Positions 1-2,436 of a DNA stretch of 6,108 nt are shown in pieces; positions within the stretch are counted from its first letter, which is position 1, and each line of letters opens with the position of its first letter. Source of the DNA: Bacteroidales bacterium. Lineage in GTDB: Bacteria; Bacteroidota; Bacteroidia; Bacteroidales; VadinHA17. The notes beneath the pieces were generated by a model. That model was not told where the DNA came from and did not search any database. It saw only the letters and a program-made list of their open reading frames with translations. The translations under genes were made by a program, and so were the position numbers. Where the stretch lies: contig PMEC01000214.1 of NCBI GenBank assembly GCA_003155705.1, forward strand, positions 786-6,893, read 5' to 3'.

Positions 1-353
1 TATTTAAAGTCATCCGGGATATTGTATTTTTTTAGTATTTTTTCAATAACAGGGAAATATCTGTTTGCCCGTTTTATTATCAGGATTGTCGATGAATGTC
101 TATATGCACTTGTAATAACTTCTCTTTCAAGACTTTCGCGAGTGTCAAAATTTTCAAGGGGCATTCTTTCACCTGCAAAACTCACACTATCAGGTAGCTT
201 ATATGGTCTTGAAATACCATTAAAATAACTGTTTGAATTATCTTTTCTGCTTTTAATTTCACCGCCGAATCCCTGCTCAACAAAGAAGATACCGGTACCT
301 GTTAATATTATAATAATAAGTGTTTTAAGTGTTTTTCTTTGTGAAACTATCAT
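1..353 (-). CDS. Lytic transglycosylase, N-terminal part (MltD-like, Bacteroidota type), cut by the left window edge
   Basis: This is a partial gene: 117 codons plus two bases are present, and the rest lies beyond position 1. The start is the ATG at 353-351. The protein opens with a basic start and a hydrophobic stretch (residues about 8-25, TLKTLIIIILTGTGIFFVEQ), a signal peptide or membrane anchor. The following segment, with LPDSVSFAGERMPLENFD (residues 53-70), then HSSTILIIKRANRYFPVIEKIL and NIPDDFKY at the cut edge, is the region that precedes the SLT domain in Bacteroidota lytic transglycosylases. Such enzymes cleave the glycan strands of peptidoglycan in the periplasm, leaving 1,6-anhydro ends. 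The catalytic glutamate and any LysM repeats would lie outside the window, so activity cannot be judged. The gene is preceded by its own promoter at 381-412, so it is probably transcribed independently of the sigma/anti-sigma operon upstream. The family call rests on remembered resemblance. Confidence 0.82.
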   Translation of the reverse strand, partial: MIVSQRKTLKTLIIIILTGTGIFFVEQGFGGEIKSRKDNSNSYFNGISRPYKLPDSVSFAGERMPLENFDTRESLEREVITSAYRHSSTILIIKRANRYFPVIEKILKKYNIPDDFK

Positions 354-440: not shown

Positions 441-530
441 AAAGAAAAAGGGTTGGATCAGCCAAATCAGAATTTATATGATAATCCTGAAAATACTCCG
501 AACGAGTACGGATGAGCAGTAGATCCAACC
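441..530 (-). terminator. Possible terminator-like fold at the end of the anti-sigma gene
   Basis: On the minus strand GGTTGGATC (530-522) is a perfect 9-base inverted match to GATCCAACC (459-451), and the second arm is followed at once by CTTTTTCTTT (450-441). Inside the loop is a smaller hairpin, TACTC/GAGTA with a five-base loop (508-494). The outer stem would begin inside the last codons of the anti-sigma gene, whose stop is at 469-467. The 62-base loop is long for an intrinsic terminator, so chance pairing is a real alternative. A competing short stem, TTGG/CCAA, lies immediately before the same T-rich run. Confidence 0.3.
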
Positions 531-1783
531 AGACCTCCCAATGGAGTAAGATAATATCTTAGAGTGGGTTCTATATTAAGAGAGACCTTCCCGGAGAAAT
601 TATATTCAAATCCAAGTCCAAATGAGCTGCTGAAATTTACAGGACTCAACCCCTCTGTCTTTCCTATTGAATATTTCACCCCGCTAACATAAGTAGAAGC
701 TGAGTTACCAACAAGCATATTATATGATAATCCACCTATTAAATTCAAATCTATTTTACTGTCGATAGCTTTGAACTTAAAGACAACCGGGACCTCCAGA
801 TAATTAAAATTCTGGATAACTGAATTATTAAGGTATGTCAGGTCAGCTTTTGCAGGATTGAATACATCACTCGAGTATCTTGTAATCACTCTTCCTGATA
901 TATTATCTCTTAAAAAAATATCATTATTAGTAGATACTATTGTTCCATTGGATGTCTGGAGGCTAAATTCGCTGCTGCCTTTTGCGGCATAATAACTGCG
1001 AAATCCTGAATATGTACTTATCCCAGTAATTTTTTGACCAACCGAAGAGTAATAAACGCCTGACCGGATGCTTATCCTTTTATTTACTTTATATGAAAAC
1101 GCCATCCCTCCCGCATAGGAGACTGCAGGTTTCTCATTCTTGGCTAGATCTGTTGAAGCATCATTTTTTCCAAAGCTTGTGCTTGAAAAATAAGTTGGTG
1201 ATGCCAGTGCGCTAATCGTCCATCGATTAACCACATTTCCTGTATTTGCAGGTAGAGAATTTTCAGGAATTAAACTAAGATATTTTTTTTCTGCAGAACT
1301 TGAATTTTCAACTAAATCACTCCTGGCAACAATAGTTCCATTGCCCTTTCGAGGTTTGCCTTCCTTTAAAAAACTAGAAAATAGGCTTGAAGATGGAATC
1401 TTTAGATTTATCTGTTCGGAACTGTTTTTTTCATTAATGATTATGGATCCAGCAGTTTCGTTACTGATAACAGGAATTTCAATTTTTGGAGCTGTTATCA
1501 ACCGATTTTTAAATACATAAGAACCTGCAGGAATGACATCCTGATTCAGTGAAATTGATGGTCCGTTAAAATTTTTCGAGATATTAGTTGTCAACCAGAA
1601 AGAAAAGACCGAGATTGAAATCGGAATGGCAGCAATAGCAGCAAATCTCAAAATATTAAGAGACCTCTGCTTCTTCCTCAGTACAGGTTGAATATTATTC
1701 CAGACCTCAGGAGGAGGAAGAACTTCAAATTCTTTCAGCCCGTTCCTGAAAAAAATATCCACATATGTACCTCTGTCAGCCAT
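467..1783 (-). CDS. Dual-membrane-spanning anti-sigma factor (Dma-like): cytoplasmic segment, TM helix, periplasmic linker, outer-membrane beta-barrel
   Basis: This 438-residue protein probably holds the preceding ECF sigma factor inactive and senses the outer membrane. Residues 1-46 are short, soluble and presumably cytoplasmic, with the FRNGLKEFEVLPPPEVWNNI pattern (12-31) common at the front of Bacteroidota anti-sigma-type proteins. Residues about 47-65 form one hydrophobic helix, flanked by basic residues on the N-terminal side (RKKQR at 36-40, R46), which predicts N-in topology. Residues about 66-186 are a polar, Ser/Asn-rich linker. From about 187 to the end come alternating strands rich in Gly, Tyr and Ser, as in the OMP_b-brl/PorT-like barrels, finishing in SGLSYKF with a C-terminal phenylalanine, the usual signal for outer-membrane barrel assembly. 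The ATG at 1783 lies 6 bases after a purine-rich run (1799-1790) inside the sigma gene and the genes overlap by 8 bases, suggesting translational coupling. No zinc-binding anti-sigma motif is visible. A porin-like protein without sigma-binding function is the main alternative. Confidence 0.8.
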   Translation of the reverse strand: MADRGTYVDIFFRNGLKEFEVLPPPEVWNNIQPVLRKKQRSLNILRFAAIAAIPISISVFSFWLTTNISKNFNGPSISLNQDVIPAGSYVFKNRLITAPKIEIPVISNETAGSIIINEKNSSEQINLKIPSSSLFSSFLKEGKPRKGNGTIVARSDLVENSSSAEKKYLSLIPENSLPANTGNVVNRWTISALASPTYFSSTSFGKNDASTDLAKNEKPAVSYAGGMAFSYKVNKRISIRSGVYYSSVGQKITGISTYSGFRSYYAAKGSSEFSLQTSNGTIVSTNNDIFLRDNISGRVITRYSSDVFNPAKADLTYLNNSVIQNFNYLEVPVVFKFKAIDSKIDLNLIGGLSYNMLVGNSASTYVSGVKYSIGKTEGLSPVNFSSSFGLGFEYNFSGKVSLNIEPTLRYYLTPLGGLVGSTAHPYSFGVFSGLSYKF

Positions 1784-2336
1784 TTACCACTTTCTTCTTA
1801 AGTCCGGTATACGATCCAACTCTTCTCTGAAGTATGATCCTTGCTCGTGAAAGATTGGATTTCGAAGTACCTTCAGAGATATGGAGCATCTTACCTATTT
1901 CTTTGTGCGAGTAACCTTCGATGGCATAAAGGTTAAACACCATACGGTACTTAGGAGGCAATTCCCTGATAATGTACAGCAGGTCAATAGCTTCAAGACC
2001 TGCATAGTCTTCATTATCCGGGTCTGATTCCGGCTCGGTGATAGTGTCAATATCGTCAATCCTGTAAAGATTGTGCCTGCTTCTGAATTTCTCAAGGGCA
2101 GTATTGACAACTATCCTTCTCATCCAACCTTCAAAAGAACCTTCATGTTTATAATGATGAAGATTCTCAAAAATCTTAATGAAACCTTCCTGGAGGATAT
2201 CCCTGGCTTCTTCATCATTACCTGAATACTGAAGGCAGACAGCAAATAATTTTGACGAATGCCTTCTGTACAAAAGTTCCTGATCCCTTCTGTTACCGTC
2301 AAGACATCCAAGTATTATTTGCTTAATATCGCTCAA
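1776..2336 (-). CDS. ECF-type RNA polymerase sigma factor
   Basis: This 186-residue protein directs RNA polymerase to a set of promoters and belongs to the extracytoplasmic-function sigma-70 group. Region 2 spans about residues 20-86 and includes DILQEGFIKIFENL and the GSFEGWMRRIVVNTALEKFR stretch, typical of the core-binding and -10-recognition part. An acidic linker (about 95-112) follows. Region 4 spans about 120-173, with ELPPKYRMVFNLYAIEGYS and a helix-turn-helix (HKEIGKMLHISEGTSKSNLSRAR) that reads the -35 element. Length and arrangement are normal for the family. The start is TTG at 2336: the frame is open upstream to a stop near 2399, but contains no ATG or GTG, and the N-terminus SDIKQIILGCLDGNRRDQELLYRRH fits where such proteins usually begin. 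It overlaps the anti-sigma-like gene by 8 bases, the standard arrangement for a sigma factor and its regulator. Its targets are unknown. Confidence 0.93.
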   Translation of the reverse strand: MSDIKQIILGCLDGNRRDQELLYRRHSSKLFAVCLQYSGNDEEARDILQEGFIKIFENLHHYKHEGSFEGWMRRIVVNTALEKFRSRHNLYRIDDIDTITEPESDPDNEDYAGLEAIDLLYIIRELPPKYRMVFNLYAIEGYSHKEIGKMLHISEGTSKSNLSRARIILQRRVGSYTGLKKKVVNG

Positions 2337-2405: not shown

Positions 2406-2436
2406 TGATGTGATGAGTTGAAAAAAGGTTGCGTTC
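2406..2436 (-). promoter_or_regulatory. Possible ECF-type (autoregulated) promoter of the sigma/anti-sigma operon
   Basis: On the minus strand, GAACGCAACC (2436-2427) is followed by a T-rich spacer and CATCA (2410-2406), 16 bases after AACC. An AAC-containing -35 element with a CGTC/CATC-like -10 at about 16 bases is the general form of ECF promoters, and ECF sigma genes often activate themselves. Transcription would start near 2399, about 60 bases before the TTG start. There is no good TAnnTTTG housekeeping element in this gap; the best near-match is TATATTTA. The assignment is inference from pattern and position only. Confidence 0.35.

Follow-up and report, generated by a model that had tools for sequence, protein, structure and literature searches.

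A predicted Dma/Reo-type anti-sigma factor beside an ECF sigma gene in a Bacteroidales genome

Layout of the locus and of the anti-sigma protein

We analyzed a window of 6,108 nucleotides from a Bacteroidales bacterium (GenBank assembly GCA_003155705.1, contig PMEC01000214.1), in which all genes lie on the minus strand. In the order of transcription, the window holds the following features:

6108-5854 (-): dihydrolipoamide-dehydrogenase-type gene, end part, named from relatives
5779-2549 (-): GH38 alpha-mannosidase gene
2407..2434 (-): predicted ECF promoter, ACGCAACC-N16-CATC, at exact spacing in 56 of 59 loci
1776..2336 (-): ECF sigma factor gene, 186 aa, TTG start, with Pfam Sigma70_r2 and r4
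467..1783 (-): likely Dma/Reo-type anti-sigma gene, 438 aa, assigned from domains, conservation and structure prediction
1..353 (-): lytic transglycosylase (SLT) gene, start part, truncated at the window edge and named from relatives

Among the best 25 of 104 NCBIfam matches to the sigma gene, TIGR02937 alone exceeded its cut-off. The TTG start of this gene (window 2334-2336, minus strand) was kept in all 60 loci compared, the window included; 59 were counted directly, and L032 has its TTG one codon upstream of the position picked by rule. Because this rare start codon is conserved, sigma may be held at a low level. A hairpin at the TTG start codon was also considered and dropped, as folds of single sequences were inconsistent. 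The sigma and anti-sigma genes overlap by 8 nt (ATGGCTGA being the common bases), and a gap of 113 nt separates the anti-sigma gene from the transglycosylase gene. No terminator-like site was found in this gap, a result that carries little weight because the expected number was 0.1. The transglycosylase gene could have its own promoter within the same 113 nt.

The 438-aa anti-sigma protein divides into these parts:

1661..1783 (-): residues 1-41, predicted cytoplasmic sigma-binding segment with an F-x-N-G..E..PP..W motif and invariant columns
1571..1660 (-): residues 42-71, predicted inner-membrane helix, from structure prediction and hydrophobicity
1223..1570 (-): residues 72-187, predicted disordered periplasmic tether, from low pLDDT and low conservation
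470..1222 (-): residues 188-438, predicted 8-strand outer-membrane barrel with a C-terminal Phe, from fold prediction and a domain match
839..1006 (-): residues 260-315, a long loop joining strands 3 and 4, with an outward orientation predicted from the fold

Residues 42-71 are the only strongly hydrophobic stretch of the protein, and the helix predicted there covers residues 47-65, where a first-pass annotation of the sequence had placed one. That annotation had also expected a closed barrel following residue 187, which the structure model of the full protein predicts; the barrel is of the OmpA type. When modeled as a single chain, the tether had a pLDDT below 50 at residues 75-86 and 88-183, and values at residues 1-16 were mostly below 50 without sigma. 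Conservation across 94 sequences followed the same division: 3.07 bits per site in the N-terminal segment (1-41), 2.99-3.73 in the barrel strands, and 0.72 at tether residues 91-183, the lowest of the protein. Just after the helix, periplasmic residues 67-97 (window 1493-1585, minus strand) are modestly conserved (I77, N80, P85) and may be where a protease or a binding partner acts.

The 56-residue loop 260-315 is itself well conserved at 2.72 bits per site, with the other outward loops at 1.88, 2.87, and 2.45. This loop bears on one explanation for how sigma is released, namely that conserved loops of the barrel bind a specific surface molecule, such as a glycan, part of lipid A, or the PD40 lipoprotein described below, and that this binding is relayed inward. 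Such binding would suit a loop almost as conserved as the strands, and a glycan ligand was proposed for Dma2 by its authors, according to the accessible part of their paper (PMC13088901). However, a tether predicted to be disordered would be a poor conductor of conformational change, and we regard ligand-triggered release as distinctly unlikely.

Domain matches and invariant columns led us to reject the reading of the anti-sigma gene as an artefact or chance ORF. A sequence search of solved structures with its product gave a best E of only 0.87, and a search of viral contigs found no relatives of it. The layout of the protein suggests that it is likely a Dma/Reo-type anti-sigma factor, with its topology and outer-membrane placement predicted from models. 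The first-pass pairing of a sigma gene with an anti-sigma protein apparently spanning two membranes was borne out by the gene overlap and predicted layout.

Gene neighborhood and the forms found in relatives

All 64 related loci, listed from one scan with three patterns, came from Bacteroidota records. The sigma gene lies upstream of the anti-sigma gene in every one of the 60 loci holding that place, mostly overlapping it, and in the remaining 4, which have no sigma match, a contig edge falls within the anti-sigma protein. In L064, the N-terminal part was too diverged for the search and sigma was located at the expected distance. Exactly one anti-sigma copy, with the full query covered, was present in each of the 23 same-genus genomes, including the window's own. 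Counting the window, 56 loci extend 450 nt or more downstream, and in 53 of them the transglycosylase is the next gene; it is not in L047, where a small frame intervenes, L054, and L064. The L006 orthologue of the transglycosylase matched PF01464 (SLT) at 4e-20. On the upstream side, a dehydrogenase or mannosidase gene precedes sigma in 52 of 55 loci. In 8 loci, one of them the window, the gene immediately ahead of sigma is the GH38 alpha-mannosidase; in other relatives it is mostly the dehydrogenase.

In the FecI-FecR-FecA and RseA-sigmaE systems, the state of the outer membrane or periplasm reaches an ECF sigma factor via an inner-membrane anti-sigma factor, with a receptor or sensor at the outer membrane that is a protein of its own. 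The first-pass annotation had proposed that the window system has no separate TonB-dependent transducer, and none was seen among inspected representatives of the conserved neighbor clusters. A long conserved neighbor was rejected as a nearby TonB-dependent transducer, since its sequence, judged by eye, is UvrA-like.

More distant relatives came from a class-wide scan that gave matches in 33 of 198 genomes, from which 29 loci were read. A sigma match adjoined the frame in the same orientation in 20 loci, was fused to it in one (L129), and was absent in 8, of which 7 look barrel-only and L118 carries the N-terminal motif. Open frames that combine the N-terminal motif with a barrel span 457-610 aa in these class-wide relatives. 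The sigma genes of L125 and L131 are each followed by a gene whose product (263 aa in L125, 225 aa in L131) consists of the N-terminal motif, a helix, and a polar tail and lacks a fused barrel. Within ~30 bp follows a second gene, for 337-348 aa; its product starts like an exported protein, ends in Phe, and reaches 24.6 and 18.3 bits for the barrel family, short of the Pfam cut-off of 27 bits. This split arrangement occupies L125:939-3363 and L131:930-3219, and the GCAACC-N16-CATC element precedes sigma in both. In L129, sigma, helix, linker, and barrel form one chain with no anti-sigma segment from sigma to helix, which ruled out natural sigma/anti-sigma fusions as a model of contact.

Because the motif also follows the sigma gene in L125 and L131, where the protein lacks a fused barrel, residues 1-41 are likely the sigma partner. 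The occurrence of both split (L125, L131) and fused (L129) forms implies that the parts are modular, and the single-chain Dma form may be derived from a split anti-sigma/barrel pair. Release need not be uniform across the class, given L129-type fusions.

The split form also bears on whether the hydrophobic segment might be a signal sequence cleaved after export, leaving a mature protein that does not bridge the membranes. A cleaved signal peptide is normal for barrel proteins, and the same two distant relatives carry a separate exported barrel-like protein, but the conserved 41 residues before the helix are unlike the n-region of a signal peptide and are co-conserved with the adjacent sigma gene. 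We consider cleavage of this kind very improbable.

Promoter element and predicted regulon

GCAACC-N16-CATC was exact before sigma in 56 of 59 loci, at 91-113 nt ahead of the start codon; the 59 include the window, and all offer 120 nt or more of upstream sequence. Of the exceptions, L029 has a spacing one base off, L040 has TATC, and L064 is without a site. A 14-base form of the promoter had at least one match in 31 of 60 genomes, compared with 0 for a reversed control. Across G000-G022, this form gave 20 matches in 20 genomes, each 648-653 nt before the anti-sigma start; G008, G013, and G016 had no strict match. From this association we infer that sigma reads GCAACC-N16-CATC promoters, and the promoter of the sigma gene is likely autoregulatory. 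An EcfO promoter motif is attributed to Ndamukong 2013 in the accessible text of PMC7366714, and the motif may thus already have been described in a relative.

In the window's own genome, a looser 10-base form gave 10 matches against 1 for the control. Two of these were intergenic and gene-leading, one before the sigma operon and one before a gene for a PD40 lipoprotein. The other 8 were set aside as likely chance matches because they fell within or opposite frames of at least 241 aa. The PD40 gene product has 333 aa, with PD40 repeats and a lipoprotein-type signal, as judged by eye. A close orthologue is present in 22 of 23 same-genus genomes (the window's own included, G018 without), and the copy in G003 is interrupted by an in-frame stop. 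The motif precedes the matched start by 176-243 nt in all 22 orthologues.

A 12-base form was then applied to ten of the 23 genomes, mostly the more complete ones, and returned 21 matches, 8 at the sigma operon and 10 at the PD40 gene, with 0 for the reversed control. Two of the remaining 3 stand before other lipoprotein-signal genes (G001) and one lies inside a frame (G013). With 18 of 21 matches at two sites and none in the control, a tiny regulon is therefore predicted, comprising the system's own operon and one PD40 lipoprotein gene, or about two transcription units. The first-pass annotation had called the regulon not known, and the shared promoter sequence now supplies a predicted one. 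The two additional G001 genes, L284:792-1472 (-) and L285:1547-2431 (+), combine the promoter element with lipoprotein-type signals, and neither had a Pfam family above cut-off.

The element extends in part to distant sigma genes, 4 of 21 having it in exact form (L106, L108, L125, and L131) and L133 having it with one change. It was absent from the stretch read in 7, and 9 of the 21 could not be judged, as the start was not placeable or too little upstream sequence was available.

Tether length and the proposed mechanism of release

We compared tether lengths using the distance from W28 to W188, dropping 10 of 281 sequences in which these anchors failed. In clade I (230 sequences, or 93 once those more than 65% alike were removed), this distance had a median of 159, a middle half of 159-161, and a range of 152-196, at a mean tether identity of 11%. 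Tethers in clade II were longer and looser, at 169-199 (41 sequences, 9 non-redundant). The clade I member L035:2054-3481 has a tether about 35 residues longer than the rest. Across the 16 genomes in which both linkers were measurable, tether length varied by 1.4% at 26% identity, versus 17% at 41% identity for the SSB linker (Brown-Forsythe test on logs, p = 0.007; paired Wilcoxon test, p = 0.0005), with 1 of 20 SSB sequences dropped for a run of N. A narrower first pattern, which measured just 14 of 20 tethers, had given 1.0% versus 13% in 10 shared genomes, a difference that was not significant (p about 0.16-0.17 and 0.10). The FtsZ C-terminal linker varied by 1.3% at 50% identity in the 19 of 22 same-genus genomes measured. 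Tether length constancy is real within clade I, but it is not demonstrably special because the FtsZ linker is equally constant.

These lengths matter for the possibility that the tether acts as an entropic spring or ruler, such that a shift in the distance or force between the membranes would move residues 1-41 off sigma without proteolysis. A length nearly fixed despite so little identity, and steadier than that of an SSB linker whose sequence is more alike, would fit a pulling mechanism. So would a worm-like-chain estimate of about 5-18 pN for 121 residues stretched over an assumed width of 20-25 nm. However, the FtsZ control matches this constancy, the SSB contrast was not significant in the first 10 genomes before the pattern was widened, and one tether in clade I has 37 residues more. 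Clade II is also longer and more variable, class-wide frames with motif and barrel vary as widely as noted above, and a helix in a fluid membrane would probably transmit a pull poorly. Hence, we consider release by pulling unlikely, and given the FtsZ result a ruler was not adopted as the lead explanation. Its fullest version, in which the tether is a molecular ruler of the inter-membrane gap, the regulon resets that gap, and the whole arose by fusion of a split anti-sigma/barrel pair still present in distant Bacteroidota, strikes us as rather doubtful. If true, it would describe a self-contained thermostat of envelope spacing acting via a wall-cutting transglycosylase and a lipoprotein. Such an outcome would be more surprising than a signal of failed assembly.

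According to the accessible part of PMC13088901, Dma2 has an N-terminal anti-sigma domain, a helix, a long disordered tether, a C-terminal barrel, and an adjacent sigma gene. The identical order of domains supports the Dma-type assignment made in the first pass. Like the Dma family, the window protein is predicted to have a single helix after a short N-terminal segment, a long disordered tether, and a C-terminal outer-membrane barrel, and an ECF sigma gene is adjacent in the window and 60 related loci. The Dma family is described as confined to Bacteroidota with sigma factors of group ECF21, and loss of Dma1 or Dma2 is reported to raise outer-membrane vesicles. Das1-Dma1 and Das2-Dma2 of Bacteroides thetaiotaomicron, as far as the accessible descriptions go, share the part order and adjacent ECF sigma of the window, and these systems, associated with vesiculation and glycan-locus control, are likened to it by layout rather than sequence. 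The Dma2 operon carries a DUF4943 protein in the available description, whereas the transglycosylase is next in the window operon. Dma3 likewise has an inner-membrane helix, linker, and outer-membrane barrel but, unlike in the window, its sigma is the N-terminal domain of the same chain, as exemplified by L129.

The EcfO-Reo system (Bacteroides fragilis, Phocaeicola vulgatus) also consists, in the excerpts available, of a sigma gene followed by a predicted two-membrane anti-sigma factor. Its regulon there includes NigD surface lipoproteins, and that of the window system a predicted PD40 lipoprotein. Unlike EcfO-Reo, window-type loci mostly have a transglycosylase gene next (53 of 56), and the two are likened by layout rather than sequence. 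In Phocaeicola, both BcpT and Bd-A induce the Reo system, according to the accessible part of PMC13114119, and bacteroidetocin A binds and inhibits BamA (PMC9308784). Given these inducers and the inhibition of BamA, failed insertion of the sensor barrel would be the most economical signal, although the inducer data come from the relative Reo and extend to the window protein by analogy.

We favor, with a probability of about 60%, a Dma/Reo-type anti-sigma factor that restrains sigma at the inner membrane until a barrel-assembly or damage signal leads to its proteolytic release and transcription from GCAACC-N16-CATC promoters. The C-terminal barrel, because of its fold and C-terminal Phe, would itself be a client of the outer-membrane assembly machinery. 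Once folded in the outer membrane, it would form a closed, protease-protected leash, with residues 1-41 keeping sigma silent. Failed insertion or outer-membrane damage would expose the periplasmic part to cutting, and a subsequent cut in the helix would free sigma. Free sigma would then transcribe its own operon, likely continuing into the transglycosylase gene, and the PD40 lipoprotein gene elsewhere in the genome.

The Dma/Reo class is already published, and the window protein is a further member; no description of its predicted regulon or transglycosylase operon partner was found in the Dma/Reo literature searched. For the whole class, the question is how the state of the outer membrane reaches a sigma factor in the cytoplasm through one polypeptide. 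This member makes the question testable because it has one copy per genome, a sharp promoter, a predicted regulon of about two units, and a gene for a peptidoglycan enzyme following it in the operon, and because its parts can be told apart in naturally occurring split and fused versions.
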